This document shows, in pieces, positions 34,742-52,396 of a DNA stretch of 64,000 nucleotides. Origin of the DNA: Bacillota bacterium (GTDB lineage Bacteria > Bacillota > JADQBR01); the NCBI GenBank assembly GCA_016278515.1, contig JADQBR010000028.1, positions 1 to 64,000 of the forward strand, written 5' to 3'. Each line of letters starts with the position of its first letter. Within the stretch, counting starts at the first letter, position 1. The notes below the pieces were generated by a model that was not told the DNA's origin, ran no database searches, and saw only the letters and a program-made list of their open reading frames with translations. The translations under genes and the position numbers were made by a program.

Positions 34742-34808
34742 TACAGTATCTCCTATGTTAGGTTTTCATCTTTTGCCCTTGGCCTTCCCTTCTCTTGGTT
34801 ACATCTCT

Positions 34809-35507: not shown

Positions 35508-35543
35508 TTTAAAACCACCTCGCACAAATGCTGATTACATACA

Positions 35544-36605: not shown

Positions 36606-36607
36606 TT

Positions 36608-38707
36608 TTATTCGTCCTTTCCTTGCAGCTTTCTTCTCATTTCTTCACCTAACATGTCGCCTAGCGTAATGCCGGTTTCCTCGGTTTGTACCTGCTGGTT
36701 TCGGCTAGCTTTATGCTGTTGTTTAGGCTGTTGAGGTGCTTGCTGCTTAGGACGTGGTTGGGTTTCCTTCACGCTTAAGCTCATTCTCTGGGCCTCTTCG
36801 TCCACTCCAAGTACTTTAACCTCTACTTTATCTCCTGGGCTAACCGCATCTTCCGTCTTTTCAACATGCTCATGGCTTAATTGTGAGATATGCACCAAAC
36901 CTTCTATGCCCGGTTCAACCTCAACAAAAGCACCAAATGGAGCGGCTCTCAGTACTGTTCCCTCTACAACTGTGCCTTCAGGATATTTTTCTGCAGCAGT
37001 ATCCCAAGGGTTTGCTTTTAGCTGCTTTAATCCTAATGATACACGTTCGTCTTCACGGTCAACGCCTAACACCTTAACTTCAATCTCTTGACCTTCTTCA
37101 AGAATATCCCTTGGATGGTCTACGCGCCCCCAAGATAATTCAGAAACATGCAGCAAACCGTCCACGCCGCCTAAGTCAACGAACGCACCGAAATCAGTTA
37201 GACGTCGAACAATACCTTTATGAACCTGTCCTTCTTCTAAGTCTTCCCAAGTTTCCAGCCTCTTTTGTTCGTATTCTTTATCTAAAATCGCCTTTTTGGA
37301 CAGCACTACTTTATTTTTTCCCCTGTCTAATTCAATTACCTGTAAACGCAATTTAGTTCCCACATAACTATTCAGGTCTTCCACATATCCTCTGTCCACT
37401 AAGCTGGCTGGAACAAAACCCTTAATTCCTACATCAACCAAAAGGCCACCTTTTACCACTTCCAGTACTTCTGCTTCTAACTCTGCTTCTTCTTTAAATG
37501 TCTTCTCTAATTTTTCCCATGCCTTATCCCTTTCAGCACGTTTCAAGGATAAAATGGGATGTCCTTCGTCATTTTCAGGCTTAATTACTACAACGGAAAC
37601 TTCGTCGCCGATACTAATTACATCCTCTGGATTGTCTATATGGCGCATGGATACTTCATTAATTGGAATAATACCTTCGGATTTTCCACCTACGCTTACC
37701 ATCACTTCATTATCATTTATCTGAACAATCCTCCCGGTGATGACAGAACCCCGGCGAAGTTCAGGCATATTTTCGTTTAACTGCGCTTCAACTGCCTCCT
37801 GATCGGTCTCTACTTCACCCACTTCTGCTTTTTCCTCCTCTACGGCAGCCTCGGTTTGTTCAATTTCCTGTTCTTTTTTAATGTCTTCCATTTTCAACAC
37901 AACCTCCTCAATAATCCACTCTGGTGTTGAAGCACCTGCAGTAACTCCAACCTTTACTATATTATTAAACCATGGTTCACATAACTCGGCGACGTTTTCA
38001 ATATGATGTGTCGTCGCACCGGCCTCCTGACAAATCTTAGCCAGTTTCTTAGTATTAGCACTGTTCTTTCCACCTACTACAATCATTAAATCAACAGCTT
38101 TTGCCAATAGTTTAGCCGCCTCTTGACGCTCACGAGTCGCACTGCAAATCGTGTTATGTATAACCAGATTATTTGTCTTATCTTTTAAAACATTGACCAC
38201 TGTTTGGAAATTATCTTCCGGTTGAGTAGTCTGAGCTATCACCGCAATTTTTTCGTATACAGCCAAGGCTGCAGCTTCCAAGGGGCTTTCTACGATTTTA
38301 GCTTTCCCTTGGGCCCACCCTAAAATACCAATTACTTCTGGGTGATTTCTGTCTCCCACTATTACCACTTGGTACCCTTGCTTAGACAAATGGCTAGCTC
38401 TTCTTTGGGCGCGACTGACAAACGGGCAGGTAGCATTAATTATTGTTACCCCTTGAGCCTTTAACTTATCCAGCACTTCCGGAGACACCCCATGGGAACG
38501 AATGATGATGGAACCTTCTTTAACATCTTCCGGTTCAGCGGCAATAGAAATTCCTTGTTCTTCAAGACGTTGAACCACCTGAGGATTATGTATCAAAGGG
38601 CCTAATGTTTTTAATGACTGCTTACTATGTTGAGCTTCTTCAGTCATTTTCATCGCTCGCTGTACTCCAAAACAAAAGCCAGCGTGGTTTGAAACTATAA
38701 TCTTCAA
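36608..38707 (-). CDS. ispH: IspH (HMBPP reductase) fused to ribosomal protein S1
   Basis: The 699-residue fusion has two parts. Residues 1-275 are the 4Fe-4S enzyme 4-hydroxy-3-methylbut-2-enyl diphosphate reductase, with its three Cys in GFCFGV, NATCPFV and NTICSAT, and the IIRSHG motif. After an acidic linker (about 285-320) come four S1 RNA-binding domains (from GSVITGRIVQINDNE, VVKGGLLVDVGIKGF, VHKGIVRRLTDFGAFVDLGG and GTVLRAAPFGAFVE). This fusion is known from clostridia. It couples terminal isoprenoid synthesis to an S1-like translation or RNA protein. It is followed by fni, which isomerises its product. Confidence 0.95.
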   Translation of the reverse strand: MKIIVSNHAGFCFGVQRAMKMTEEAQHSKQSLKTLGPLIHNPQVVQRLEEQGISIAAEPEDVKEGSIIIRSHGVSPEVLDKLKAQGVTIINATCPFVSRAQRRASHLSKQGYQVVIVGDRNHPEVIGILGWAQGKAKIVESPLEAAALAVYEKIAVIAQTTQPEDNFQTVVNVLKDKTNNLVIHNTICSATRERQEAAKLLAKAVDLMIVVGGKNSANTKKLAKICQEAGATTHHIENVAELCEPWFNNIVKVGVTAGASTPEWIIEEVVLKMEDIKKEQEIEQTEAAVEEEKAEVGEVETDQEAVEAQLNENMPELRRGSVITGRIVQINDNEVMVSVGGKSEGIIPINEVSMRHIDNPEDVISIGDEVSVVVIKPENDEGHPILSLKRAERDKAWEKLEKTFKEEAELEAEVLEVVKGGLLVDVGIKGFVPASLVDRGYVEDLNSYVGTKLRLQVIELDRGKNKVVLSKKAILDKEYEQKRLETWEDLEEGQVHKGIVRRLTDFGAFVDLGGVDGLLHVSELSWGRVDHPRDILEEGQEIEVKVLGVDREDERVSLGLKQLKANPWDTAAEKYPEGTVVEGTVLRAAPFGAFVEVEPGIEGLVHISQLSHEHVEKTEDAVSPGDKVEVKVLGVDEEAQRMSLSVKETQPRPKQQAPQQPKQQHKASRNQQVQTEETGITLGDMLGEEMRRKLQGKDE

Positions 38708-38728
38708 TCTATCACACCTTTAGATGTA

Positions 38729-38770
38729 GTTCGAAAAGTCCCTCACAGGTGAGCGGCGAACTTTTCGAAC
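38729..38770. repeat. Palindromic element P1, core GCTCACCTG
   Basis: GTTCGAAAAGT (38729-38739) pairs with ACTTTTCGAAC (38760-38770). Inside, a small CTCAC/GTGAG hairpin carries, on the minus strand, the word GCTCACCTG. The element at 53731-53780 has the same plan. It lies between plsC and ispH-rpsA. Confidence 0.75.
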
Positions 38771-38906
38771 AAGCACTTTAACCAAGCATAAACTTAAAAA
38801 ACATCTTAGCCTTAGTTTGCTATTTTTTGTCAAGCATTATTATTGGTTCGTTAAAAAAATTTCAATTCCTGCACATGCAAGGAAAATTGTCTAGTTTAAT
38901 CACAAT

Positions 38907-39509
38907 CTACGTTCTCTCATTCATCATTTTATGGATATTATTGCGCACTACACCCATAGCCCGGGCAAGCTCTTTAGAATTAATTCGTGCTGACTCTTTG
39001 AAATCGTCTAAATAGATCGGGTCACCAATAACTACGAAAACCTTTCTTTTAAATCGTAACCCCATTTTAAATGTCCCTTTAATAGCAATCGGGACTAGAG
39101 GAGCGTTCCCTTTGAGAGCCAATAATCCGGCACCCGGTTGAAACTCCATTAAAGCGCCGTCTTTAGTCCGAGAGCCCTCTGGAAAAAGGCCTAGCACCTT
39201 TCCTTCTTTTAAGACCTCTATCGCCGCTTTAAGTGCGGCTCTGTCCGATTTACCGCGTTTAACCGGAAAAGCGCCCAGGGGATGAAGCACTTGTCCAAAT
39301 AATGGTATGCGAAACAGTTCTTTTTTTGCCATGTAATGTACTTTTCTAGGAAGAGCAATACCTACCATAACCGGATCCCACATACTTGCGTGATTGGCTG
39401 CCACGACAACAGGCCCCTGGTTAGGAAGATTTTCCCCACCTACTACTTCCCATTTAAACCAAAGAGATACGAACACCTTCAACAAGCCTTTAACAAACTC
39501 GTATAGCAT
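38907..39509 (-). CDS. plsC: 1-acyl-sn-glycerol-3-phosphate acyltransferase
   Basis: Second acylation of phosphatidic acid synthesis. The 200 residues contain the acyltransferase blocks NHASMWD (His/Asp catalytic dyad, about residue 38), GAFPVKRGKSD, LFPEGSRTKDG and NAPLVPIAIKG. A hydrophobic N-terminus probably holds it on the membrane. It is placed between cmk and ispH-rpsA, 3 nt downstream of cmk, as in many Firmicutes. Confidence 0.93.
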   Translation of the reverse strand: MLYEFVKGLLKVFVSLWFKWEVVGGENLPNQGPVVVAANHASMWDPVMVGIALPRKVHYMAKKELFRIPLFGQVLHPLGAFPVKRGKSDRAALKAAIEVLKEGKVLGLFPEGSRTKDGALMEFQPGAGLLALKGNAPLVPIAIKGTFKMGLRFKRKVFVVIGDPIYLDDFKESARINSKELARAMGVVRNNIHKMMNERT

Positions 39510-39512
39510 AAG

Positions 39513-40178
39513 TTACTCTCCTCTGATAACTTTCAAAACTTCATCTACTACTTCTTCCACTGTTTGACAGCTTGTGTCCAACAATATGGCATCAGGAGCC
39601 TTAATTAAGGGGGCAATTTCCCTGCTGCGATCCATTTCATCCCTAACTTCTATTTCTTTTTTCACTTCTTCCCCTATGAAAGGTATGTTTTGCTCATCCA
39701 ACTGCTGACACCGCCTTCTTGCCCTTTCTTCTATAGAGGCAGTTAAAAAAAACTTGTGTTGGGCATGGGGAATTACATAACTACCAATATCTCTACCGTC
39801 CATCACAACCGGTTGTTTGTCTGCCATTCGACGCTGAAGGCGCACCATATGGTGCCTCACTGCGGCAATACGCGCCACTTTAGAAACGTTTTTGGAAACC
39901 ACCTGCTGTCTGATTTCACTAGTAACTTCTTGACCATCGCAAAAAACTCGCAGAACCCGCTGGGCATCATATTTAAGCTCAATATCGGTAAATTCAGCCG
40001 CCCTTGCAATTTCTACCTCATCATCCATAGCAATGTTCTGGTTCATTACTTTCCATGTCAGTGCCCTATACATGGCTCCGGTATCAACATAGAGATAACC
40101 TAACTCGTCTGCCAGCAGCTTAGACACAGTACTCTTTCCTGCACCTGCAGGACCGTCAATTGCAACGTTTCCTACCAT
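39513..40178 (-). CDS. cmk: (d)CMP kinase
   Basis: Phosphorylates CMP and dCMP. The 221 residues start VGNVAIDGPAGAGKST (P-loop), with YVDTGAMYRALT and DGRDIGSYVIPHA. The ATG at 40178, five bases after AAGGAGGTG, is used; a longer frame from 40199 lies before that site. Conserved neighbourhood aroA-cmk-plsC-ispH. Confidence 0.95.
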   Translation of the reverse strand: MVGNVAIDGPAGAGKSTVSKLLADELGYLYVDTGAMYRALTWKVMNQNIAMDDEVEIARAAEFTDIELKYDAQRVLRVFCDGQEVTSEIRQQVVSKNVSKVARIAAVRHHMVRLQRRMADKQPVVMDGRDIGSYVIPHAQHKFFLTASIEERARRRCQQLDEQNIPFIGEEVKKEIEVRDEMDRSREIAPLIKAPDAILLDTSCQTVEEVVDEVLKVIRGE

Positions 40179-40223
40179 AAGCGCACCTCCTTGCCCCATT
40201 TTACCATAAGTGACAATAGTTAA

Positions 40224-41522
40224 CTAGATTAACTTACCTCTTGATATGGATTTTAATACTTCAGTAAAATCCGGGAAAGATACGGTTACTGATTCGGCAC
40301 CCTCTACAATGGTGGTGCCTTGAGCAATTAAGCCGGCCATAGCCAAAGCCATGGCTAAACGGTGGTCTTGATGACTAGATACTAAAGTTCCTTGAAGCAA
40401 CCTGCCGCCGAGTATCTCAATCCCATCAGGCCTTTCGGTGATAGCTGCCCCAAGCTTTTTTAATTCCAAAGCCAAGGCTGAGATGCGATCACTTTCCTTA
40501 ACACGGAGTTCCTGGGCATCTTTAATGATAGTTTTTCCCTCTGCCGTTAACGCAGCCACAGCTAAGGCAGGTATTTCATCAATCATTCTAGGGATAAGAC
40601 TGCCGCCAAATTGGGCTGCTCGTAGAGAACTGCTCTTCACCTCTAAGTCAGCAACTTCTTCGCGGCCAAAGAAACGCCGGTTAAGTATTTGAATGTCCGC
40701 ACCCATTTCCTGCAGCGCTTCGATAATGCCGTTACGGGTAACATTAATACCGACATTCTTTACAATCAAGTGCCCTTGAGGAACAATCAGCGCGGCAACA
40801 ATTAAAAAGGCAGCTGAGGATATGTCTCCAGGAACTTGTACCCTCTGTCCCGTCAAGACCTGTCCGCCTTCCAGCTCAACAGTGTTGCCGGACCGACTTA
40901 AATCTGCGCCAAAAGCCTTCAGCATGTTCTCGGTATGGTCTCTGGAAGGACTGGGTTCAGTATAGCGACTCTTCCCTTGAGCCCTTAATCCAGCCAACAG
41001 TACTGCAGATTTAACTTGAGCACTTGCAACGGGGCTCTGATAATCAATAGCTCTCAGGTGATGTCCTCTAATAGTAACCGGCATCATAGTATCATCCGCG
41101 CGACCATAGATTTGCGCACCCATTTGCATTAAAGGTTTCGTAACCCTTCCCATTGGCCGTCCATTTAATGAACTGTCTCCATTCAAAACCGCATAAAGAC
41201 CTGGTTCTGAGGCTAAAATCCCCATAATGAGGCGTGTTGTGGTGCCTGAGTTACCTGTATCCAGCACCGTATCCGGCGTGCAAAAACCTTTTTCTCCACC
41301 ACCAACAACCGCTACTTTACGTCCATCCACATTAATGGGAATACCTAAAGCTCGAAAGCAATTAATTGTGCTGAGACAGTCAGCGCCCATCAGAAATCCT
41401 TCAATGGTAGTAGTTCCTTCTGCCAATGCCCCTAACATCACCGCCCGGTGAGAGATGGATTTATCTCCCGGTACAGTAACTTCGCCTGTTATTCTTTTTG
41501 TTTGTTTCACTGTTAAATTCAT
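40224..41522 (-). CDS. aroA: 3-phosphoshikimate 1-carboxyvinyltransferase (EPSP synthase)
   Basis: Transfers enolpyruvate from PEP to shikimate 3-phosphate. The 432 residues contain PGDKSISHRAVMLGA near the start, the LDTGNSGTTTRLIMG loop at about residue 85, SSAQVKSAVLLAGL-like (here ASAQVKSAV), and RVKESDRI near 340. It is a two-domain inside-out barrel of normal length. It follows tyrA by 19 nt. Confidence 0.96.
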   Translation of the reverse strand: MNLTVKQTKRITGEVTVPGDKSISHRAVMLGALAEGTTTIEGFLMGADCLSTINCFRALGIPINVDGRKVAVVGGGEKGFCTPDTVLDTGNSGTTTRLIMGILASEPGLYAVLNGDSSLNGRPMGRVTKPLMQMGAQIYGRADDTMMPVTIRGHHLRAIDYQSPVASAQVKSAVLLAGLRAQGKSRYTEPSPSRDHTENMLKAFGADLSRSGNTVELEGGQVLTGQRVQVPGDISSAAFLIVAALIVPQGHLIVKNVGINVTRNGIIEALQEMGADIQILNRRFFGREEVADLEVKSSSLRAAQFGGSLIPRMIDEIPALAVAALTAEGKTIIKDAQELRVKESDRISALALELKKLGAAITERPDGIEILGGRLLQGTLVSSHQDHRLAMALAMAGLIAQGTTIVEGAESVTVSFPDFTEVLKSISRGKLI

Positions 41523-41541
41523 GGGAAATGCTCCTTCTGCC

Positions 41542-42654
41542 TTATAACTTCCTCACCGAATATCCTGCTTTTTCCAATAATACCTTGGCTTTATCCATGG
41601 CCTCATCACTCTGTACTCCCAAACGAATGGTCCCGCCTTCGCCTTCTCTTACCCTGAGGATTTCAATGTCGGCGATATTTATATCTTGTTGGCCCAGCAG
41701 TTGGGCTAAGGAACCTATTACACCGGGCTCATCGGGAACTATTACCACCAAATCAAATACCTGAGGCAAAAATCCTCTTCTTTTAGCCGGGATATTTTCC
41801 CGCGTATCTCTCGCTCTGACAAAAAAATCTTCGATTTTATCGTGTCCATCATTAAGCAGCGAGTTTTTAAATAAAGCCAGGTTGTTTTGAAGCAAATCAA
41901 TAACCGAGATAAGATGTTCTTTATTTGTGATGCAGATACCCTGCCACAAATCCGGACTGCCCGAGGCAATGCGCGTTGTGTCCCGAAAGCCGCCTGCTGC
42001 CAGCATGAGCGTTCTAGCCCACTCTTTCTCTACTTCACCGACAGTGTTCACCAATGCAGCAGCAACCACATGGGGTAAGTGACTGACTGCCGCTACGATT
42101 TTGTCGTGTTCCAGAGGAGACATCACCATTTTCTTTGCCCCGAGATTTCCAACTAAATAGTTAATAGTTTTGAAAGCCAATGTTTCTTCTTGATCAGGCG
42201 TCAAAATGTAGGCAGCATTTTCGAATAGATAGGGATCAGCGCCTTCGATCCCCGCTACCTCTGAGCCGGCCATGGGATGCCCGCCAATATATACGCCTTT
42301 TCTCGCAAAGATTTGGTTAAGGCTTTTTACCAGACCGCTTTTCGTACTGCCGACATCACTGACAATACAGTTTTCCGGCATATGCCTTACTATCAATTTA
42401 GCCAACCCGATCATTTTTTCAACCGGTACCGCTAATATTATCACTTGTGCATCTTTAACAGCCTTACTTATCTCAGTAGTTGCGAAGTGGACAGCACCAA
42501 GCTGTTCAGCACGCCGGCAGACTTTAACATTATTATCCACACCCACTATCTCTTCAACTGCACCGACCCTTTTCCAAGCTAAACCTAAAGAACCACCAAT
42601 CAGCCCCAAACCAATTATTACGACTTTACGTACTGGCTGCATCTTGACTACCAT
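41542..42654 (-). CDS. tyrA: Prephenate dehydrogenase with ACT domain
   Basis: Oxidises prephenate to 4-hydroxyphenylpyruvate for tyrosine. The N-terminal NAD-binding segment is VVIIGLGLIGGSLG. SDVGSTKSGLV, GGHPMAGSEVAG and AAVSHLPHVVAAAL mark the active site, and a C-terminal ACT domain (about 300-365, DEPGVIGSLAQLLG) suggests tyrosine feedback. The start is uncertain: ATG at 42654 is used, TTG at 42663 and ATG at 42642 are alternatives. Its 5' end overlaps pheA by about 29 nt. Confidence 0.94.
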   Translation of the reverse strand: MVVKMQPVRKVVIIGLGLIGGSLGLAWKRVGAVEEIVGVDNNVKVCRRAEQLGAVHFATTEISKAVKDAQVIILAVPVEKMIGLAKLIVRHMPENCIVSDVGSTKSGLVKSLNQIFARKGVYIGGHPMAGSEVAGIEGADPYLFENAAYILTPDQEETLAFKTINYLVGNLGAKKMVMSPLEHDKIVAAVSHLPHVVAAALVNTVGEVEKEWARTLMLAAGGFRDTTRIASGSPDLWQGICITNKEHLISVIDLLQNNLALFKNSLLNDGHDKIEDFFVRARDTRENIPAKRRGFLPQVFDLVVIVPDEPGVIGSLAQLLGQQDINIADIEILRVREGEGGTIRLGVQSDEAMDKAKVLLEKAGYSVRKL

Positions 42655-43495
42655 TTCTACCAACAGGATACGACCCTAGTATCTGCAAGAAGGATGCTTT
42701 AGATTTAAGAGAACTGATTGCCGCCGCAAGTTGCGTTTCTAATTGGTGCCCTTGACAATCTATATAAAACAGGTAGTGCCCCAAGTCCTTTTTATTAGGA
42801 CGAGATTCTATGCGGGAGAGGTTAATGTTTAGTTGGGCAAATTCCGACAAGATTTCGTATAACCCACCTGGCTTGTCATGAGGCAGCCCTACAATCAGAG
42901 AAGTTTTATCATGGCCGGTCGCCTTCTTGCCGATTGCAGCCTTTCTGTGCCCTACCAAAAGAAAACGGGTCTGATTATTGATGGAATCAGCCAAGTTTTC
43001 GTTAATTATCTCCAATCTGTTTAAATTCGCAGCATATTTGGAGCAGATTGCCCCTAAACATGGGGAATTATTCGCAGCCATTTGAGCAGCCCTGCCGGTG
43101 CTGTCCGCTTGCTGGATTTTGATATTAGGGTAGTGCTTTTGTAAATAACCCCGGCATTGTGCCAGGGCTTGAGGGTGTGAAACAATTATTTCTAGCGTTC
43201 TATCCTTGTTTTTTGCAGCTAAGCAGTGATTTATATCTAGAATTGTCTCCCCTAATATATGCAAGGGTTCCTGCAACAACAAATCCATAGTCACCGCCAC
43301 ACTGCCTTCTATAGAATTTTCTACAGGTACAACAGCTGCATCCGCCTTGTTATTTACAACCGCCATAATGGTTTCCATCACGCTAGGGTAGTCCTGGGCG
43401 GCAGAAAAATCCCTTTGCAGCCACTGTTGAGCAGCCTGGTGTGAAAAGGTTCCCGCCGGTCCCAAATAGGCTAACGTTCCACTGATCTGTCTCAT
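42626..43495 (-). CDS. pheA: Prephenate dehydratase
   Basis: Converts prephenate to phenylpyruvate. The 289 residues have the PDT domain ([37 protein letters not shown], the catalytic Thr in NQTRFLLVG) and a C-terminal ACT domain (about 195-270, [14 protein letters not shown] and [17 protein letters not shown]), the usual phenylalanine sensor. The ATG overlaps the aroF stop in an ATGA junction of 4 nt. Confidence 0.96.
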
Positions 43496-44508
43496 AACTC
43501 TCTTCCCATTACACTAGCCAGGTCTTGCATCTGTTTCATGGTCTCACTAAAGTTCTCAGGCGTCAAAGACTGTTGGCCATCGGATAGCGCTTCTTCCGGC
43601 CGGCAATGTGTTTCTATCATCAATCCATCAGCCCCTGCTGCTATAGCAGCTCTTGCCATAGGGGCAACCAAACTCCACTTCCCGGTTCCATGGCTGGGAT
43701 CCACAACAACTGGTAAATGACTTAAATTTTTCGCTGCAGGGACCGCGCTTAGATCTAAGGTGTTTCGGGTATAAGTTTCAAATGTTCTAATGCCTCTTTC
43801 ACACAAGATAACATTATGGTTACCTTCAGACATGATATATTCGGCAGCTAGGATCCACTCCTCAATTGTGGCCGAAGCACCACGTTTTAACAGGATAGGT
43901 TTCTGAATACGACCCAACTCCTTCAACAAAAAGAAGTTTTGCATATTCCTTGCCCCAACTTGCAGCAAATCTGCATATCTAGCTACCAAAGGAATATTCC
44001 GAACGTCCATCACTTCGGTAACTATTGGCAACCCTGTCTCTTGACGGGCAGCGGCTAAAATCTTTAGCCCTTCCTCCTCCATGCCTTGGAACGAATAAGG
44101 AGATGTTCTGGGTTTAAAAGCACCACCTCTAAGGAGGGTTGCTCCACTAGCCTTAACTTCTTTCGCTATTTCCATCAGCTGGTTTTCCCCTTCTACTGCG
44201 CAAGGACCGGCTATCACATGAATTTTTTTACCACCGAATTTAACATCCGGCGTTACCTCTACCGTTGAATCCTCAGGCTTAAAATCTCTCCCCGCAAGTT
44301 TGAACGGCCTTAGAATTGGTACCACCTTTTCTACGCTGGACATAGCCTCCAAGGCCAACCCTGTCAGCCTGGTTTTATCACCAATTATTCCAATAATAGT
44401 CCGCGAAACTCCTTGGGACAGATGCACCTCAAAACCCTCTTTTTTTAACCTATTTATAACTGAATCCGTATGCTCCGACTTTGCATTAGGTGCCATTACT
44501 ACTATCAT
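43492..44508 (-). CDS. aroF: 3-deoxy-7-phosphoheptulonate synthase (DAHP synthase)
   Basis: First enzyme of the shikimate pathway, joining PEP and erythrose 4-phosphate. The 338 residues have an N-terminal ferredoxin-like regulatory domain (about 1-70) followed by the KDO8P/DAHP synthase barrel: [45 protein letters not shown] and VDPSHGTG. This is the type I-beta class with a fused N-terminal domain. It leads a tight aroF-pheA-tyrA-aroA run. Confidence 0.95.
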
Positions 44509-44783
44509 ACATTAATCCCTCCAAACAATTATAGTAACATTATACCACCAAATCCCAAATTTAAAGATTTTTCTACAAAAAACCCCTCCCCCAAGCGGAC
44601 CATCTAAGGAAAAAGTAAATTCAAAAAAGATATTTACTCAAAAAAGCAAAAAAACCCCTTAAAGGAGTAATTATACTTTCTCCTACCATCCTACCGTCCT
44701 GCTTTTTTTGAACTTGTCCAAAAGAGCAAGCATGCTCTAGAACTGTTTAGATAAATCTGCTACCATTCTACAATACTACAATT

Positions 44784-45287
44784 TCATAGCAAACTTATAA
44801 GTTTGCTAAAATCATTAGCACGAGTTAGACGAATCTCAATACCATAGGGCTTTAAATTCAGAGCATGTCGAAATTGCTCAGGGTCCGGATTGCAACGCAA
44901 AATCACCTGCTCCAGATTAGCTTTTGGGTCATTACTAGCTATATCCAAAACAATATAGCCCCGCCTGTTTCCTTCTAATGAAGTTTGATATGTTAAGATA
45001 TGTTCGCTGAAATTATTAGTATACTCCTTATCCTCTGAACCTTCGAAAGCCAGCACTTCCAACTTACAGAGACTAGCTATTTCCGAAACGCTGTACCAAG
45101 GTTCGTCTTTAAAAAAACCAATCTTGGAAACTAAAGGCGGTATCTCCAGCGCAATTTCTCTTGCCTGCTCCGGATGAACAGCATTCTCACCGTGAAAAAT
45201 TAGTCCAATGCCTGTTACACCCCAGGTTGCCAGCTGTCTGGCCTGGTGAGTATTGTTAATTCCCGATACAATTAAAAATGGCTTCAA
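44784..45287 (-). CDS. TrpF-like (phosphoribosylanthranilate isomerase-like) protein, catalytic Cys missing
   Basis: The 167 residues match the TrpF barrel: LIVSGINNTHQARQLATWG, HPEQAREIALEIPPLVSKIGFF and GYIVLDIAS. The catalytic Cys of the KICGIT motif is replaced by Ser (VSGIN) and the GGSG phosphate-binding loop near the C-terminus is not visible. Isomerase activity is therefore doubtful. It is encoded with a TTGA overlap after aroH and 275 nt before aroF, not with trp genes. It could be a regulatory or repurposed barrel, or a decaying gene with an intact frame. Confidence 0.65.
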   Translation of the reverse strand: MKPFLIVSGINNTHQARQLATWGVTGIGLIFHGENAVHPEQAREIALEIPPLVSKIGFFKDEPWYSVSEIASLCKLEVLAFEGSEDKEYTNNFSEHILTYQTSLEGNRRGYIVLDIASNDPKANLEQVILRCNPDPEQFRHALNLKPYGIEIRLTRANDFSKLISLL

Positions 45288-45643
45288 CGCAAGTCCTCCC
45301 GCAGCTTCATAGCATGCTTCAGGTAAATATGGCTTATTTCATGCTGTTTTTTGTCCGTATTTACATGTATTAATATGCGAATAATTCCTTTCTCACTTCC
45401 CGGCACATCTATTTCCGTAGCACAAAGTAATGGTACCGTAGTCCAACCAATTTCCCGTGCTGCTGATGCGGGAAACGCCGCATCTAAATCCTTAGTTACC
45501 GTAAATAAGACACTGGCTGCATCAGTTAAATCCAAACTGTTCTCCTCTACCATCCTACCCAAAAGCTCCCGTGTCGCCTCTCTTATCTTATCTGCATTAT
45601 TTTCTTCCACGGAGGTAGCGCCGCGAATACCTCTAACTGCCAT
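45284..45643 (-). CDS. aroH: Chorismate mutase, AroH type
   Basis: Monofunctional trimeric chorismate mutase making prephenate. It is 119 residues from the ATG at 45643 (8 nt after GGAGG). Landmarks are VRGIRGATSVEENN, LFTVTKDLDAAFPASAARE, VPLLCATEIDVPGS and RILIHVNTDK, with active-site Arg and Cys positions in the usual places. It supplies pheA and tyrA downstream. Confidence 0.94.
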   Translation of the reverse strand: MAVRGIRGATSVEENNADKIREATRELLGRMVEENSLDLTDAASVLFTVTKDLDAAFPASAAREIGWTTVPLLCATEIDVPGSEKGIIRILIHVNTDKKQHEISHIYLKHAMKLREDLR

Positions 45644-45668
45644 ACTACATTCCTCCATTTAATGTATT

Positions 45669-46088
45669 TTATGGAACCGCCCTATGGCCCAACCCAATGG
45701 CAACCTCGTCCAAATGCAACAAACCAATCCCAAAATAGACTGCTACACTGATGTGATCATGATAGCGCGCCACCCCAATCTTTCCGCCAACATTTAAACC
45801 GATTGCCTTTGGCATTATCTGGGATAATGCTTCTCTTGCTGCGCCGGCAACTGCCCCTTCTTCTACATGAATGTCTTTAATAACGTTTTCTCTTTTGGCT
45901 GCAACTACTGAGCGCTCCACAATTTTTTTTAGCGCATTGATGAATTCCCCGCCGTAATCCACTGCTGCAGTTTTAACGCCTAATTCCAGATACTGACCTT
46001 TGAGAATATTTTCTTCTTCTCTTGATTCGGTCAGAGCCATTTTTATTGCAATGGCTGCTATTTTCTTACTGCCGTATTTCTCATGCAT
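45669..46088 (-). CDS. HutP family RNA-binding regulator
   Basis: The 139-residue protein matches the HutP fold: IAAIAIKMALTESREEE at the start and, at the end, VGGKIGVARYHDHISVAVYFGIGLLHLDEVAIGLGHR. The His cluster corresponds to the Mg and histidine-binding residues of B. subtilis HutP, an L-histidine-responsive antiterminator. Here it lies just upstream of aroH and the aromatic amino acid run, not beside hut genes. It may regulate these genes or another target; that is inference. The start MHEKYG has no strong ribosome-binding site. Confidence 0.8.
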   Translation of the reverse strand: MHEKYGSKKIAAIAIKMALTESREEENILKGQYLELGVKTAAVDYGGEFINALKKIVERSVVAAKRENVIKDIHVEEGAVAGAAREALSQIMPKAIGLNVGGKIGVARYHDHISVAVYFGIGLLHLDEVAIGLGHRAVP

Positions 46089-46195
46089 TTTCTTTCCTTC
46101 TTTCTACGATTAGACTGTAGCTTTTTAAGCATTATATCTCAATGAAAGATGGTTTGACAAGGAAAAGGTTTCTATCTTTATGATAATTTCTCTCG

Positions 46196-46714
46196 TTAAT
46201 GCGACTCAGAAACGTCTACAGGGTCAAGTGATACTTGGTTTTTATATACTTCCACCATTCTTCCTGTTTTGGGCTGGGCTACGTTCTTTGAAGCGGAAAC
46301 TATCTTGAATACCAATCTGTGAGTATAATAGCTGCCGTCGATACTTAACACATCATGAGGATTGACCCTGACAGTAACTTGTTTATCTCTAAAATCAGCG
46401 ACAACACTATCATTAATAAGAAGTTTCGCCTTCTGTAGGCTCGAAAAGTTTTCCAGTCGTATTGTCACTGTGGAAAACGCCGCTACCTGTCCGCTAGTCG
46501 CTCTTGCCTCAGGGTATTGTCTATCAAAGTCAGTTACTTCCTGATTCAGTTTTTCTGAAAAACTCATATAGAGTTGCATTGGATCCTGCAAAAAGAAGGT
46601 TTGAACTAATACGATTAAAATTACCCCCACAACGATGGCCCTTATTAAATATTTCTCCACTTCTTCTATAAAGATAGTCTTCAATAGAGTTTTCTTTCTT
46701 ATATTATATTTCAC
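46196..46714 (-). CDS. Membrane-anchored hypothetical protein
   Basis: The 172-residue protein has a basic N-terminus, one membrane segment (about 24-44, LIRAIVVGVILIVLVQTFFL), and a beta-rich external domain (FSTVTIRLENFSS, VTVRVNPHDVLSIDGSYY). A GTG start follows GGGGGGAT. No family is recognised by name. It is typical of Firmicute proteins that follow a promoter near HutP. The nearest upstream DNA is repeat island R4. Confidence 0.55.
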   Translation of the reverse strand: MKYNIRKKTLLKTIFIEEVEKYLIRAIVVGVILIVLVQTFFLQDPMQLYMSFSEKLNQEVTDFDRQYPEARATSGQVAAFSTVTIRLENFSSLQKAKLLINDSVVADFRDKQVTVRVNPHDVLSIDGSYYTHRLVFKIVSASKNVAQPKTGRMVEVYKNQVSLDPVDVSESH

Positions 46715-46739
46715 GAAAATCCCCCCACATACCCTTTAG

Positions 46740-46985
46740 TAAGTTGGACAGTTGGTCAGTTGGACAGTTGGTCAGGTTTTAAACCCTTCCAGCCTTCCAA
46801 CCTTCCAACTCTTCCAGCTTTGAACCTTTCCACCTCTTCCAACCTTCCAACTCTTCTAACTTTGCAACTATCTACTCTACTCTTATGTTACGTAGGGGGA
46901 GGCTAGTCTATTACCAGATTCAGTTGGAAAGTTGGTTGGTTGGTATTTTCCTGTCCAACTTTCCAACAGTCCAACTTTCCAACTA
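46740..46985. repeat. Octamer repeat island R4 (largest)
   Basis: Four forward units (AGTTGGAC, AGTTGGTC, repeated) and AGGTTTTAAACCC are followed by a long run of inverted units (TTCCAACC, TTCCAACT, TTCCAGCT). A second small set sits near 46921-46983 (AGTTGGAAAGTTGGTT, centre GGTATTTTCC, then TCCAACTTTCCAACAGTCC). It lies between two divergent genes. It overlaps no coding sequence. Confidence 0.85.
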
Positions 46986-47074
46986 AAATAAAGTAGTACC
47001 GCTTTAGGCTCAGTTACGTATTATGTATTGAGGCGGTATTAACACGCACTTAACGCTGTCAGGAGGAATGGAAC

Positions 47075-47263
47075 ATGTTGACGTTACGGACCATGCTGTC
47101 AAGATTGCTCACTTATGAGGCTTCTCTAGTTCGCAATTATGAAACTTACAGCATGTCTACACCTAACGAGGAAGTCAAAAAGGCCTTATTAGAACTGGCG
47201 GAAGAACACAAGCAAAACCACAAACGATTAAAGACGCTGTTTAAGACGTACTGCAAAGGTTGA
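47075..47263 (+). CDS. Small two-helix protein
   Basis: The protein has 62 residues preceded by AGGAGGAATGGAAC. Two amphipathic helices (LRTMLSRLLTYEASLVRNYETY and EEVKKALLELAEEHKQNHKRLKTLF) give a ferritin-like half-bundle, as in small spore- or stress-associated proteins of Clostridia. The gene stands alone on the plus strand with a strong terminator. No family name can be assigned. Confidence 0.6.
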   Translation: MLTLRTMLSRLLTYEASLVRNYETYSMSTPNEEVKKALLELAEEHKQNHKRLKTLFKTYCKG

Positions 47264-47270
47264 GGCGGGT

Positions 47271-47297
47271 AAAAACAGTCCCGGCGGGACTGTTTTT
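47271..47297 (+). terminator. Terminator after the small two-helix gene
   Basis: CAGTCCC/GGGACTG stem with loop GGC, preceded by AAAAA and followed by TTTTT, 7 nt after the stop codon. It also serves the convergent minus-strand flavoprotein gene. Confidence 0.92.
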
Positions 47298-47318
47298 CTG
47301 CTGCAAATCATTTCGTCT

Positions 47319-48545
47319 CTAAACGCTAATTCCTGCTAAATAGCCGGTTGACCAAGCTGCCTGCAAATTGTAACCGCCGGTATTTCCATCCACATCGATT
47401 ACTTCACCGGCAAAGAAGAGCCCCGTTACTAATTTCGACCCCATGGTAGATGGGTCAACCTCTTTTACCGAAACACCGCCGCTGGTAACAATAGCTTCTT
47501 TTAGCGGCCTGGTGCTTTCCACAGTCATTGATAGGTTCTGCATTAGTTCAACTAACCGCTGCCGCTCTGCCTGTGTTACTTGGTGAATAAATTTATCGGG
47601 ATTTATTTGCGAGAGCTCAACCACCACCGGAATTAGTAATTTAGGAAGTAATTCATCTAATGCATTTTTAAACTGTTTTCTGGAATAATCTTCAAAATCT
47701 CTCACTATCCGTTTATCCAGTTGTTCCGAGGTTAATGCCGGCTTAAGATTTAGCCGAAGTATTACTTTATCTTTTTTAGTACCTAAGGCTTCATTAATAT
47801 CTCTACTAAGTGTTAGTACGATAGGACCTGATACGCCATAGTGAGTAAAGAGCATCTCGCCAAATTCCTCACCTAATTTTCGTCTCCCACACCCAGCACT
47901 CAAACGTACATTCCTCAAAGACAATCCCTGCAGCTCCCGTACCCATGGTTCTTTAGTTACTAATGGCACTAAGGCCGGTTTAGGAGGTACAATAGTATGA
48001 CCCAACTGCCGTGCCCATCGGTACCCGTCTCCGGAGGAACCGGTAAGGGGATATGAAGCACCGCCTGTGGCTATCACCACTTTTGTAGTTTGGAAGTCAT
48101 CCTGTTCGGTACTTACTGTGAAAATTTCATTCTGGCGGGTAATTGCCGTAACTTCTCTATTAAGCAGTACATTCACGCCGGCCTCAGCCAGCCCTCTGAT
48201 AAAAGCTTCTATGACATCTTGAGAACGATCATTTTTTGGAAAAACTCTGCCGCCCCGTTCTACTTTTGTTTCTAAACCGTAGCTTGCAAGGAAATCCAGT
48301 ACGGCTTGGTTGTCAAAACTATAAAAAGCACTGTATAAGAAACGACCATTGCCGGGAATCTGCTCAATAAACTCATCTATTGGGGCACTATTGGTTATAT
48401 TACAGCGACCTTTGCCGGTAATCAAGATTTTTTTGCCTAAGCGAGTATTCTTATCAATCAGTGCTACCTTCTTTTGTCTGAAACCTGCTTGCACAGCAGC
48501 CATCATACCTGCTGCACCGCCTCCAATAATTACTACGTCGTACAA
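47319..48545 (-). CDS. BaiN/RdsA-type FAD-dependent oxidoreductase
   Basis: The 408 residues match the HI0933/YtfP family. They include DVVIIGGGAAGMMAAVQAG for FAD, KILITGKGRCNITNSA, GGASYPLTGSSGDGYRWA, MLFTHYGVSGPIVLTLSR and the C-terminal GLFFAGEVIDVDGNTGGYNLQAAW. The family is poorly characterised; some members reduce bile-acid or other enoate substrates. Ferric siderophore and other roles have been suggested, but none is evident here. Confidence 0.9.
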   Translation of the reverse strand: MYDVVIIGGGAAGMMAAVQAGFRQKKVALIDKNTRLGKKILITGKGRCNITNSAPIDEFIEQIPGNGRFLYSAFYSFDNQAVLDFLASYGLETKVERGGRVFPKNDRSQDVIEAFIRGLAEAGVNVLLNREVTAITRQNEIFTVSTEQDDFQTTKVVIATGGASYPLTGSSGDGYRWARQLGHTIVPPKPALVPLVTKEPWVRELQGLSLRNVRLSAGCGRRKLGEEFGEMLFTHYGVSGPIVLTLSRDINEALGTKKDKVILRLNLKPALTSEQLDKRIVRDFEDYSRKQFKNALDELLPKLLIPVVVELSQINPDKFIHQVTQAERQRLVELMQNLSMTVESTRPLKEAIVTSGGVSVKEVDPSTMGSKLVTGLFFAGEVIDVDGNTGGYNLQAAWSTGYLAGISV

Positions 48546-48575
48546 AGAACCACCTTCTCAATAAATATTAATAAA

Positions 48576-48655
48576 ACTTGGCTTACGCCAAGTCTTTAGA
48601 CGCCGGCGAAAGCCTTAGTTGCACTTATGCTAATCAGAAAGTTATACTTTCTGAT
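48576..48655. repeat. Two short hairpins between ilvC and the flavoprotein gene
   Basis: ACTTGGC/GCCAAGT (48576-48593, loop TTAC) and ATCAGAAAGT/ACTTTCTGAT (48633-48655, loop TAT) are perfect inverted repeats. They lie in the 155-bp gap that also holds the ilvC terminator. Their role is unknown. Confidence 0.6.
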
Positions 48656-48660
48656 AGTAC

Positions 48661-48691
48661 AAAAAAGGTGAAAGGTTATGCACCTTCCACC
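48661..48691 (-). terminator. Terminator after ilvC
   Basis: On the minus strand GGTGGAAGGT/ACCTTTCACC with a 5-nt loop and one G-U pair is followed by six T, 10 nt past the ilvC stop. Confidence 0.85.
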
Positions 48692-48700
48692 CAAAGTCTC

Positions 48701-49699
48701 TTATTCCTTCTTTTCTAACCAAGGCATCATACTTCTTAAGTTTTCGCCTACTGTTTCAATTAAATGTTTTTCATCTTTTTCAGTCAACGCATTAAAGGTA
48801 GGCCGATTGGCCTCATTTTCCAAAATCCATTCTTTTGCAAACTGTCCCGTCTGAATTTCCTTAAGAATCTGCTCCATCTCACTTCTTACTGCGTCATTAA
48901 CTACCCTTGGGCCACGAGTTAAGTCACCATACTTAGCAGTATCACTAACTGAATAGCGCATCCAACTTAAGCCGCCCTCATAAATCATATCAATAATAAG
49001 TTTAATTTCATGCAAACACTCAAAATATGCAATTTCCGGCTGATAGCCCGCTTCTACTAGTGTTTCAAAGCCATTCTTAATAAGGCTTGTTAAACCGCCG
49101 CAAAGTACTGCCTGTTCACCGAACAAATCAGTCTCTGTTTCTTCTTCAAAGGTAGTATCGATTACACCGGCGCGGGCACAACCAATACCCTTAGCGTAGG
49201 CTAATGCCATGTCATGGGCCTTGCCGGTTGCATCTTGATACACCGCTGCCAGTGCAGGTACCCCTGCACCGTCTTGGTAGGTTCTACGCACCAAATGTCC
49301 GGGGCTTTTAGGAGCAACCATAAAAACATCTACATCCTTAGGTGGTACTATTTGACTGAAATGAATGTTAAACCCGTGGGAAAATACCAAAGCTTCCCCG
49401 GCATTCATATTAGGTGCAATTGCTTCCTTATAAACTCTAGCCTGCACTTCATCAGGCAGTAGAACCTGTACTATTTGAGCGGCCTTAACGGCTTCCGCTA
49501 CAGGAAGAACTTTTAATCCGTCCGCCTCTGCTTGGGCTTTCCTTCTACTGTCTTCTCTCAAACCAACCACTACATCCAAACCACTATCTTTCAGGTTCTG
49601 CGCCTGTGCATGTCCCTGGCTACCGTAACCCAGTACTGCGATAGTTTTACCTTTTAAAAGGTTAAGATCTGCATCTTGATCATAATACATTTTCGCCAT
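48701..49699 (-). CDS. ilvC: Ketol-acid reductoisomerase
   Basis: NADPH-dependent enzyme of valine, leucine and isoleucine synthesis. The 332 residues from the ATG at 49699 (after AAGGGGG) begin [36 protein letters not shown] is the cofactor loop, and [12 protein letters not shown] and [14 protein letters not shown] hold the metal-binding acidic residues. An upstream in-frame start at 49732 lies before the ribosome-binding site and is rejected. It is not with other ilv or leu genes in this window. Confidence 0.96.
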
Positions 49700-49821
49700 A
49701 ATTTTTCCCCCTTGGTCTAAGTAAATTGGCATATTCTAGTTAATATTCTAAATTAGCAACAAAAATCCTGCTAACTAATGGAATTATTTTTAGTCAAATT
49801 AATAATTATTCACTTATTAGA

Positions 49822-50358
49822 TCAATATTCTATCCCTTTACGGCTTCCGATATTTAGCTGGTAGGGATGCTTTAATTCCAGCATTTTCGTCACCAAATGC
49901 GCCTGTTCAATTAGTTCCTCAGGCGCATTGCGACCTGTCAGTACTACCTCAACATTGTCAGGCTTTACAGCCAATAAATCCTGAACTTCTTTTACAGTCA
50001 GTAGTTCAAACCAAATTGCATTATTAATTTCGTCTAATATGAGGATATCAGTCTCCAGGTCCATCAGCCACTTTTTAGCCTGACCCAACGCTGCCTGGGC
50101 CAACTGTTTATCCTCATCGCTGCCCTCGCCTTTTTTGATAAAGCCCTTACGCCCAAATGACTTGCAATCCAAGTATGGTTCTAACATCTTAAAAGCATTA
50201 TTTTCGCCATACTCCCCTGTCTTCATAAACTGAACAATACGCACATTGAAACCATGGCCAACAGCCCTTAAAGCCAATCCGAAAGCTGCCGTGCTCTTGC
50301 CTTTGGCATTACCAGTGTAAATTTGGATCAAACCCTGCTCCAGTTTCTCCCTATTCAT
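49822..50358 (-). CDS. cobO: Cob(I)yrinic acid a,c-diamide adenosyltransferase
   Basis: CobA/CobO/BtuR-type adenosyltransferase that attaches the 5'-deoxyadenosyl group to cobalamin precursors. The 178 residues have the P-loop YTGNAKGKSTAAFGLALRA near the start and ILDEINNAI at about 105, plus LTGRNAPEELIEQAHLVTKM. Length and motifs are standard. It is isolated from other cobalamin genes here. Confidence 0.93.
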   Translation of the reverse strand: MNREKLEQGLIQIYTGNAKGKSTAAFGLALRAVGHGFNVRIVQFMKTGEYGENNAFKMLEPYLDCKSFGRKGFIKKGEGSDEDKQLAQAALGQAKKWLMDLETDILILDEINNAIWFELLTVKEVQDLLAVKPDNVEVVLTGRNAPEELIEQAHLVTKMLELKHPYQLNIGSRKGIEY

Positions 50359-50374
50359 GACGGCCTCCTTTTTA

Positions 50375-50565
50375 GTTGGTCAGTTGGAAGAGTTGGTCAG
50401 TCGACAGTTGGACAGTTGGTCAGGATTTAAAACCTTTCCAACTGACCAACTGACCAACCGACCAACTTTTATCTTTTATCTTTTTGCTTTCCAACTTACC
50501 AACTTTTATCTTTTATCTTTTTCCTGACCAACTGACCAACTTTCCAACTGTCCAACTTATCTACT
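50375..50565. repeat. Octamer repeat island R5
   Basis: Forward units (AGTTGGTC, AGTTGGAA, AGTTGGAC; about five) end in AGGATTTAAAACC, followed by about ten inverted units (TTCCAACT, GACCAACT, GTCCAACT) interspersed with the twice-repeated word TTTTATCTTTTATC. It fills most of the 289 bp between cobO and the zinc-ribbon gene. Confidence 0.85.
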
Positions 50566-50647
50566 AAAGAGTTCCTTTTAATGGCTGAGATTTCCTGCTC
50601 TTAAAGAAAAATCAGTTTGATTAAATAAAGTCTGAGATGTACTTTAG

Positions 50648-50887
50648 TTAAGGCCATTGCAAGTTTGTTGACCCACACTGGTGGCAGGTATCAAAATAGC
50701 TTTCAGGCCGCTGAAATGCTTCATTGGTAATATCATGAGGAGCTCCGTGATTTTCGACGTGTCTAACCTGCCCATCGGCAAAATGTGCCGCCACGGACGA
50801 ATCCTTTGAGCTCATCCACGGAGTTCCCGATTGAATGCTGCTGGAGACAAAGCTGGTTTCATTACCACAGTTTAAACATCTTGGCAC
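50648..50887 (-). CDS. Zinc-ribbon protein
   Basis: The 79-residue protein starts at GTG (50887, 8 nt after GAGGGG). It has two Cys pairs, CLNCGN near the N-terminus and CHQCGS near the C-terminus, consistent with one zinc-binding ribbon built from both ends. The centre (SVAAHFADGQVRHVENHG) has two further His. No named family recognised. It directly follows the stress-type protein gene, 4 nt away. Confidence 0.6.
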   Translation of the reverse strand: MPRCLNCGNETSFVSSSIQSGTPWMSSKDSSVAAHFADGQVRHVENHGAPHDITNEAFQRPESYFDTCHQCGSTNLQWP

Positions 50888-50891
50888 AACA

Positions 50892-51380
50892 TCATCCCCT
50901 CTTTCCTGGTTTATCTTTATTTTTACTCCATTTGTCCGTTTTAGCACCAAGGGACTCGAGTAGATTAGCCACTTCATTAACCTTATCATTATTTGTCTCG
51001 ATGACAGCTAATATCTTGCCCCGCTTTACATCATTCTGATATTTCCCTGCGGCAGAATCAGATACCCCGTAAAAGGTTAAAGAGTCACTAATATTCTTGT
51101 CTTCTTGGGAAACCGCACCTGCCAACGGTCCGCCTGCAGTGACTTTTCCAACACCAGGGAGATCGATCTCGTCCACCTGAACCAACCATCCTTCCAGCGC
51201 ATCAACCCCCGGAATAGATACCTCATCGGCAGCTTCCATTTTAGCTAGTCTCTTTAGAGGTGTAACCAGCGATATCTGATTTTTGGCCAGCTCTCTTTCA
51301 TTAATCTTTTTAACAGCATCAACTGCCTGCTGCATGCCATTAAATACCCCAACTACAGTTTGTCTTATGCTCAATGACAT
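50892..51380 (-). CDS. YflT-like general stress protein
   Basis: From the ATG at 51380 this is a 162-residue protein: TVVGVFNGMQQAVDAVKKI with KNQISLVTP, then a glycine-rich middle (LPGVGKVTAGGPLAGAV) and a C-terminal domain (GKILAVIETNNDKVNEVANLLESLGA). The organisation matches Firmicute YflT/heat-induced stress proteins that repeat this alpha-beta domain. GGAGG lies only two or three bases before that ATG, so the TTG at 51374 or the ATG at 51398 is also possible. Function unknown. Confidence 0.65.
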   Translation of the reverse strand: MSLSIRQTVVGVFNGMQQAVDAVKKINERELAKNQISLVTPLKRLAKMEAADEVSIPGVDALEGWLVQVDEIDLPGVGKVTAGGPLAGAVSQEDKNISDSLTFYGVSDSAAGKYQNDVKRGKILAVIETNNDKVNEVANLLESLGAKTDKWSKNKDKPGKRG

Positions 51381-51466
51381 TTCCTCCTTAGTCGGCATGT
51401 GATGATTCCAAATGTTTACTTTGAGACATCTATTAGCTTAAACTATTTATGTCCATTTATACATTA

Positions 51467-51595
51467 AGTTGGACAGTGGGAAAGTTGGTCAGTTGGTCAG
51501 TTGGTCAGTTGGTCAGGTTAAAGGTATAAAGTTGGTTGGTTGGAAAGGTTTTAAAACCTGTCCAACTGTCGACTGACCAACTGTCCAACTATATT
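51467..51595. repeat. Octamer repeat island R6
   Basis: About six forward units (AGTTGGAC, AGTTGGTC, AGTTGGTT) reach GGTTTTAAAACC, a perfect palindrome. Inverted units follow (GTCCAACT, GTCGACTG, ACCAACTGTCCAACT). It lies between two divergent genes. Confidence 0.85.
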
Positions 51596-51691
51596 ATAGG
51601 CTAGCTTTCAGACAAATTGGTTACTTAGATTTTATATGATATTATAATTATGAATATGACTATCGTTTAACCTTTACAGGAGGAATTGGCT

Positions 51692-52396
51692 ATGGACAGG
51701 TTACAAAAGGTGATTGCTCGCGCAGGCATTGCATCACGAAGAAAAGCTGAAGAAATGATCAGTGCCGGGGAGGTCAAGGTGAATGGGAAAGTAATAACGG
51801 AAATGGGCCTAAAGGTGGATCCGAAGCAAGATTTTATTGAGGTAGATAATCAACCCTTAAGAAACAGTGAAGAAGAAAAAGTCTACATACTGCTGCATAA
51901 ACCTAAGGGTTATGTTACCACTGTCAAGGACCCCCAGGGAAGGTCAACCGTATTGGATCTAGTTAAGGTGCCCCAACGCATTTATCCCGTAGGTAGATTG
52001 GATTATGATACTTCCGGACTGCTTATTTTAACCAATGATGGGGATTTAACGTATGCACTAACCCATCCTAAACATGAAGTAGATAAAGTTTATCAGGCCC
52101 GGGTTAAGGGGCATCCTACCACGAATGCCCTGGATAGATTGCGCCAAGGAATCCTGTTAGAAGACGGACCTACAGCACCGGCAAAAGTTAAGCAGCTGAA
52201 AGCCTTTCGTGAAACAACTATACTGGAAATTACCATCCATGAGGGGAGAAATAGACAGGTCCGCCGAATGTGTGGTGCAATCGGGCACGAAGTAGCTGAC
52301 TTGAAAAGAATTGCCATTGGCAGCCTGCATTTAGGCAGTTTAAAACCGGGCGAATATGTGCAGACCAGTTTGAAAACAATAGAGAAAAACACTTAG
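51692..52396 (+). CDS. rluB: 23S rRNA pseudouridine synthase, RluB/RsuA type
   Basis: The 234-residue protein has an N-terminal S4 RNA-binding domain (RLQKVIARAGIASRRKAEEMI) and the pseudouridine synthase core with PVGRLDYDTSGLLILTNDGDL (catalytic Asp in GRLDYDT) and EGRNRQVRRMCGAIGH. It modifies a uridine in the 23S rRNA helix 90 region in characterised relatives. GGAGG sits 8 nt before the ATG; an in-frame TTG at 51686 is nearer to it but less good. Convergent with spmB, sharing a 4-nt overlap. Confidence 0.92.
   Translation: MDRLQKVIARAGIASRRKAEEMISAGEVKVNGKVITEMGLKVDPKQDFIEVDNQPLRNSEEEKVYILLHKPKGYVTTVKDPQGRSTVLDLVKVPQRIYPVGRLDYDTSGLLILTNDGDLTYALTHPKHEVDKVYQARVKGHPTTNALDRLRQGILLEDGPTAPAKVKQLKAFRETTILEITIHEGRNRQVRRMCGAIGHEVADLKRIAIGSLHLGSLKPGEYVQTSLKTIEKNT

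Follow-up and report, generated by a model that had tools for sequence, protein, structure and literature searches.

Between a chorismate mutase gene and a DAHP synthase gene, a Bacillota bacterium encodes a small protein that resembles TrpF and lacks its catalytic residues. We asked where such a protein could have come from, whether it is kept or decaying, and what it might do at this position. The analysis started from a window of 64,000 nt, the whole stretch of DNA under study (GCA_016278515.1, contig JADQBR010000028.1, forward strand positions 1 to 64,000), whose genome is referred to as G000. The protein is called TrpFx, a name coined here. On the minus strand, the genes follow in the order hutP, aroH, TrpFx, a 275-nt leader, aroF, pheA, tyrA, aroA, and cmk (Table 1). 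Of these, hutP, aroH, and aroF were named by profile matches, and pheA, tyrA, aroA, and cmk by reading the open reading frames.

The aroH stop and the TrpFx start overlap by 4 nt (TTGA, 45284-45287), in agreement with an earlier note on this DNA that had described the two genes as translationally coupled; the same overlap is present in the orthologues of G001 and G002. The note had also placed TrpFx before aroF and away from trp genes. Indeed, no trp gene adjoins TrpFx in the window, and a complete trpEGDCFBA lies elsewhere in the same genome, on contig 33, where TrpF scored 148 bits in a PRAI search of the genome and the other trp genes were named by reading. A third PRAI match in the window (36141-36308) was weak at 15.2 bits and was put down, by reading, to chance similarity between barrels; the open reading frame that holds it presumably encodes a different barrel enzyme, type 2 isopentenyl-diphosphate isomerase. 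A promoter-like sequence precedes hutP in G001, G002, and G106 too, as seen by eye. Also 5′ of hutP in several genomes is a conserved small protein, encoded in the window at 46196-46714, with a weak DUF5359 match (20.1 bits versus 25).

Table 1. Features of the TrpFx locus, in window positions.
Feature	Position	Strand	Details
Promoter-like TTGTCA-18-TATAAT 5′ of hutP	46131..46160	(-)	motif scan
hutP-like gene	45669..46088	(-)	PF09021 9e-49, 165.4 bits vs cut-off 25
aroH, monofunctional chorismate mutase	45284..45658	(-)	PF07736 8.8e-47; TIGR01796 over cut-off
TrpFx, putative TrpF-derived non-catalytic barrel protein	44784..45287	(-)	167 aa, TTG start
Leader NAG cluster 1, three NAG at period 8	44760..44778	(-)	motif count
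Leader NAG cluster 2, three NAG at period 8	44683..44701	(-)	motif count; overlaps the sole exact GGTAGGAYGGTAGG of the genome (44682-44695)
Terminator-like hairpin and T run between NAG clusters and aroF	44654..44668	(-)	scan
aroF, DAHP synthase, 3′ of leader	43492..44508	(-)	profile matches

TrpFx matched the Pfam PRAI family (PF00697) in its first half only, at 23.0 bits against a cut-off of 22.7, and fell below that cut-off in the six-frame PRAI search of the genome (21.6 bits). NCBIfam TrpF models gave E-values down to 4.9e-14, with a best score of 52.5 bits that did not reach the equivalog cut-off of 215, and a sequence search of the PDB found the Thermotoga maritima TrpF 1lbm at E 1.9e-9 over residues 7-105. 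Judged by these matches, the kinship between TrpFx and TrpF is beyond chance. Identity is 44% to the TrpF of G089 (over 91 residues) and 28% to the TrpF of its own genome. Among the orthologues described below, some score under the Pfam cut-off and that of G402 has no Pfam match at all.

Structure prediction points the same way and bears out the TrpF-like barrel that the earlier note had proposed. AlphaFold2 gave a pLDDT of 92.9 and a pTM of 0.88 with TrpF rows in the alignment, and 89.5 and 0.84 with TrpFx rows only; both models have the same elements, an eight-stranded barrel in which helices 5 and 6 are missing. The best solved match of the model was again 1lbm (Z 21.2, rmsd 2.1 Å over 166 residues). 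Its top structural matches, with Z from 21.2 to 16.7, were all TrpF structures or TrpF domains, and other barrels reached at most 14.6. TrpFx thus resembles TrpF (PF00697; T. maritima 1lbm/1nsj) in its predicted barrel and its alignable first 100 residues, whereas it is about 40 residues shorter, is modelled without helices 5 and 6, and has lost the catalytic Lys and Cys and the loop motifs.

The losses at the active site are consistent across the family. Where TrpF has KICGI, TrpFx has VSGI, with Ser at the position of the catalytic Cys and Ile at that of the Lys two residues earlier. Both residues of the K-x-C-G motif are kept in all 40 aligned TrpF. In contrast, none of the 14 TrpFx readable at this position has the Cys (Ser in seven, Thr in five, Tyr in one, Asn in one), and only that of G112 has the Lys. 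The earlier note would have been refuted by relatives with all catalytic residues at this locus, and these counts do not bear that out; relatives whose cluster retains the whole trp block do have an ordinary TrpF in it. The phosphate-loop motifs GG[TASM]G, [AG]GGL, and D[VI][AS]SG[VI]E, present in 39, 33, and 33 of the 40 TrpF, were found in none of 15 TrpFx (GGTG, AGGL, and DVSSGVE being absent from the window protein). The QLHG motif is absent as well, and the strand-4 His position varies widely (E, I, L, K, A, M, T). The loss of the catalytic Cys and of the phosphate loop, both read earlier from the window alone, therefore holds for the family. The possible catalytic Asp fared less well: an Asp does stand at the end of strand 6 in the window (D115) and in G002, but G001 has Gly there, and the strand-6 Asp motif, found in 37/40 TrpF, occurred in 2/15 TrpFx (G112 and G117, not the window protein), in a region that aligns poorly. 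By its sequence, this Asp does not seem to be conserved in TrpFx. The reading as a genuine second TrpF was rejected on the missing residues: those that define the enzyme were looked for and were absent, and TrpFx is for this reason not classed as a TrpF enzyme. As far as sequence can tell, it is a non-catalytic variant within the TrpF family.

Orthologues were sought in 101 relatives, 398 genomes of the phylum, and 43 genomes of the class of G106, sets that overlap in part. TrpFx, picked by score, a short open frame, and hutP adjacency, was found in at least 15 genomes (G000, G001, G002, G043, G076, G083, G106, G112, G117, G398, G399, G400, G401, G402, and G422). The phylum search matched 195 of 398 genomes. 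To judge by score and length of the frame, most of the remaining matches appear to be ordinary TrpF; they were not inspected one by one, which makes 15 a lower bound. A contig scan for orthologues returned only G002, whose locus lies on the MAG contig JACDOG010000003.1, plus one Lentisphaerae locus at 29% identity. Genes in the relatives' loci were named by BLAST to the proteins of the window and contig 33, and some aroH and cmk were missed by the ORF caller. In 11 of these 15 genomes, the search also turned up a complete TrpF. None was found in G398, G401, or G402, and G422 yielded only a 25-position fragment; these four assemblies are 81-96% complete.

We then asked if TrpFx is maintained. 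Nine pairs, drawn from three lineages, were compared: over codons 1-100, pN/pS was 0.17-0.33 in every pair, whereas after codon 100 it was 0.50-0.75. The N-terminal halves in these pairs are 60-78% identical and synonymous sites are saturated or nearly so, such that only the contrast between the two halves was trusted. P50, G57, F59, E69, C74, and L76 are invariant in 15/15, and the 15 frames used have no internal stop (G401 being cut by the contig end). Together, the pN/pS values, the invariant residues, and the confidently predicted fold point to a role rather than decay for the first half, and we regard it as well supported, on sequence and model grounds, that this half is kept for a role. 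The earlier note had preferred a new role to decay. This still fits better, given orthologues with the same losses and neighbours, a separate complete trpF, and selection on the frame.

Gene order across relatives suggests an origin. In all 14 readable loci, hutP lies 5′ of TrpFx, either directly or with aroH, and in G076 also a trpG-like gene, in between; G401 was left out of this count since its contig starts in TrpFx, and G083 was counted on the end of hutP that is visible in the DNA opening its contig. Nine loci have TrpFx immediately after aroH (G000, G001, G002, G083, G112, G117, and G398-G400), and three have it directly beside hutP (G106, G402, and G422). In G043, AroH and TrpFx form one 287-aa protein with CM_1 and PRAI domains, and in G076 the trpG-like gene sits beside TrpFx, between it and aroH. 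At least five other loci (G098, G047, G051, G059, and G230) have hutP-aroH-trpEGDCFBA followed by aroF, with two AroF-like genes after the trp block in G059 and G230. TrpFx thus sits where other loci hold trpEGDCFBA and seems to be what remains of a trp block that was lost. From this position and its similarity, we infer that TrpFx descends from the TrpF of a hutP-aroH-trpEGDCFBA-aroF cluster. The phenylalanine/tyrosine setting named earlier stands as an aromatic cluster and is not specific to these two amino acids: TrpFx occupies the slot of the trp block and stays by hutP where aroH is gone.

Trees based on about 100 columns were less decisive. With nine TrpFx, eight were set apart from TrpF (96.8 aLRT, 94 UFBoot) and that of G112 fell among TrpF on a long branch; with 15 TrpFx and 12 chosen TrpF, all 15 were apart, with a weak split (86.6 aLRT, 36 UFBoot). 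One origin of TrpFx is likely, although not proven. The α3 motif PRYSVxEIASFCRL was considered as a mark of hutP linkage and rejected: it is missing from the hutP-linked TrpF of G033, G047, and G059 and so looks like a sign of ancestry, not of linkage.

Other contents of this gene neighbourhood were noted in passing. In the f21 genomes G065 and G103 (L191, L192), phosphoglycerate-mutase-like and aminotransferase-like genes, identified by reading, occupy the place between aroH and aroF that holds trp genes or TrpFx in others. Directly after TrpFx in G422 (L182:8660-9835) is a strongly diverged AroA (EPSP synthase, 52 bits), possibly a fading aromatic enzyme. In the f22 genomes G066, G167, and G242 (L195, L196, L197), hutP by reading precedes the mraZ cell-wall/division cluster and not aromatic genes.

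The steadiest neighbour, hutP, encodes a member of PF09021, the family of B. subtilis HutP (1vea/1wmq). In the B. subtilis protein, His73 and His77 coordinate Mg with L-histidine, and its RNA site has a 4-nt spacer, giving a period of 7. In contrast, Gly occupies both His positions in the window HutP and in all 15 aligned members, which are strongly conserved with a mean column identity of 79%, and the associated genes are aromatic, not hut. Searches of the PDB with the window HutP, by single sequence and by profile, returned no HutP match. HutP was found in 196 of the 299 genomes searched, far more than have TrpFx.

The aroF leader offers a candidate RNA target. B. subtilis HutP with coordinated L-histidine and Mg binds two three-NAG clusters 20 nt apart (PMC7430163). 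The window leader likewise has two three-NAG clusters, to which the window HutP may bind; unlike that site, the period here is 8, with none at 7, and the gap between clusters is 58 nt in the window and 10 nt in G002. In 12 hand-chosen leaders, among them that of G036 without any NAG triple, period-8 triples numbered 15 versus 1.0 in shuffles, compared with 0 versus 1.1 at period 7 and 4 versus 1.1 at period 11. The motif GGYAGN3GGYAG had 60 matches in the scanned loci (1.58 million positions on both strands; one match is doubled because the G004 region lies in two overlapping loci), and 31 of the 60 were at most 400 nt 5′ of aroF. This placement was seen in 21 of 32 aroF loci, with the match merely 28-30 nt before aroF in G022, G103, and G166. 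Across nine genomes, all six occurrences of exact GGTAGGAYGGTAGG lay in aroF leaders (G000, G001, G002, and G076), whereas one-mismatch matches genome-wide were at about control level, so that only exact ones are informative. GGYAGN3GGYAG also lies just 5′ of hutP in G065, G103, G166, G005, and G230 (L191, L192, L193, L203, L124), a possible sign of autoregulation.

Terminator-like sites were not significant alone (two in the scanned region versus 2.7 expected in shuffles), and a similar hairpin and T run was seen by eye in other aroF leaders. Rfam, run on 34000-52000, gave no family at gathering score. A natural reading is that the period-8 NAG clusters and hairpin 5′ of aroF form a candidate HutP-type attenuator with a changed signal. 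In G000, G001, and G002, a TATAAT-like element was noticed by eye between the terminator and aroF; it may be a promoter of aroF's own, which would bypass attenuation. The leader motif is present in six of the 15 TrpFx loci (G000, G001, G002, G043, G076, and G112); six have aroF without it (G083, G117, and G398-G401) and three have no aroF (G106, G402, and G422). With the motif in just 6/15 loci, TrpFx is not tied to the leader.

The two best candidates for a partner of TrpFx are its neighbours, HutP and AroH. AroH was found genome-wide in 11 of the 15 TrpFx genomes. It was not found in G106, G402, or G422, each of which has an unbroken hutP-TrpFx junction; its absence from G401 stays doubtful, as the contig begins inside TrpFx. 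We compared the mean distance to the window's family of G106, G402, and G422 with that of the AroH-bearing sisters G398-G400. The ratio (three genomes per side) was 1.45 for the first half of TrpFx, 1.48 for HutP, 1.33 for PlsC, 1.21 for Cmk, and 1.12 for IspH-S1. After the loss of AroH, TrpFx is thus not more relaxed than HutP, and the idea of an extra relaxation upon AroH loss was dropped, although TrpFx did diverge faster than Cmk and IspH-S1. Because TrpFx persists without AroH and diverges no faster than HutP, HutP is the steadiest neighbour and AroH the main rival, and we would rank HutP first and AroH second as partner.

Our preferred reading, held tentatively and short of calling it probable, is that TrpFx is a pseudoenzyme kept for a non-enzymatic job, as a partner or modulator of HutP in an attenuation-controlled aromatic locus. 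The TrpF of a hutP-aroH-trpEGDCFBA-aroF cluster would have given rise to TrpFx with loss of catalysis, the loss and the constraint being read from sequence and the descent from position and similarity. TrpFx would retain the N-terminal half of the barrel, with β3-α3-β4 foremost, and is predicted to have dropped helices 5 and 6. It may then act on the HutP-like RNA-binding protein encoded just upstream, which probably governs aromatic genes by attenuating their transcription at leaders with NAG clusters, 44683-44778 being one example. Since HutP has Gly at both His-Mg signal positions, another signal could plausibly reach it through a partner. Against such a partnership, TrpFx loci often lack the leader motif and the G043 fusion points to AroH. 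Moreover, hutP-cmk occurs without TrpFx in G025, G292, G268, and G169 and HutP is widespread, so HutP does not need TrpFx, and the hutP-TrpFx adjacency may be inherited gene order only.

That TrpFx is instead a subunit of the AroH chorismate mutase, which it would bind, modulate, or scaffold at the chorismate branch point, strikes us as rather unlikely, in spite of the nine loci with aroH directly before TrpFx, the 4-nt overlaps in three of these, the single AroH-TrpFx protein of G043, and the shared presence in most TrpFx genomes. TrpFx is kept in the three genomes in which AroH was not found, without acceleration above that of HutP; hutP-adjoining AroH occurs without TrpFx in G036, G048, and G005; the G043 fusion could be mere stop-codon loss; and in G076 the trpG-like gene separates the two. 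By eye, no C-terminal feature separated the AroH of 11 genomes with TrpFx from that of 12 without. A free-standing small-molecule sensor or binding protein, with its pocket at the barrel top, would suit the confidently predicted barrel and the aromatic gene context; the earlier note had suggested a sensor of an aromatic intermediate. The phosphate-loop motifs are gone, however, the replacements of the strand-4 His differ widely, and the C-terminal half is less constrained, whereas a shared ligand should conserve a pocket; we consider a sensor distinctly unlikely.

TrpFx could also have stayed an enzyme, with weak TrpF activity or acting on a new substrate. It is the only TrpF-like protein found in G398, G401, G402, and, apart from the 25-position TrpF fragment, G422, but these may be tryptophan auxotrophs or incomplete assemblies, and as it lacks the QLHG motif and those of the phosphate loops along with the catalytic Cys, we consider activity very unlikely. 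That TrpFx is a slowly decaying relic which no longer does anything seems the most improbable of all. The C-half pN/pS would allow it, and the loci could be lined up as stages of erosion, from the trp block to TrpFx after aroH, TrpFx after hutP, and finally hutP-cmk alone. Yet the frames are free of internal stops, the N-terminal half stays similar despite (near-)saturated synonymous sites, and the fold is predicted with confidence even without TrpF rows.

Known systems offer partial parallels to a HutP partner derived from TrpF. In B. subtilis, TRAP and anti-TRAP are an RNA-binding attenuator and a small protein that share the control of aromatic genes. The proposed pair would have the same make-up, although the proteins are unrelated and the RNA repeats have other spacing. 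HisZ is a non-catalytic histidyl-tRNA synthetase paralogue that regulates HisG. Like TrpFx, it is a dead relative of an enzyme kept, in our proposal, as a partner in amino acid biosynthesis; unlike TrpFx, it has another fold and pathway, and its partner is proven where that of TrpFx is inferred. HisZ is named as a regulatory protein in the abstract of PMC10998830. Among the papers listed by searches of one open-licence library, no title or abstract opening described a TrpF pseudoenzyme or a HutP-type aromatic attenuator, which is weak evidence that neither is in print.

As a conserved pseudoenzyme, TrpFx would show cleanly, in nature, how an enzyme can lose catalysis and keep a job; the ancestral order with trpF inside the cluster, possible intermediates (the trpG-like gene of G076 and the fusion of G043), and the end states can all be read. 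The locus also points to aromatic genes under a HutP-type attenuator whose signal has changed. A broader reading, which we consider unlikely as a whole, would join the two: HutP without its histidine-Mg residues would run aromatic attenuation via period-8 NAG leaders in many relatives. In certain lineages, the departure of the trp genes would have stranded a dead TrpF barrel, which would have become the pathway-reporting partner of HutP. If true, an RNA-based switch would have gained a former enzyme as a subunit.
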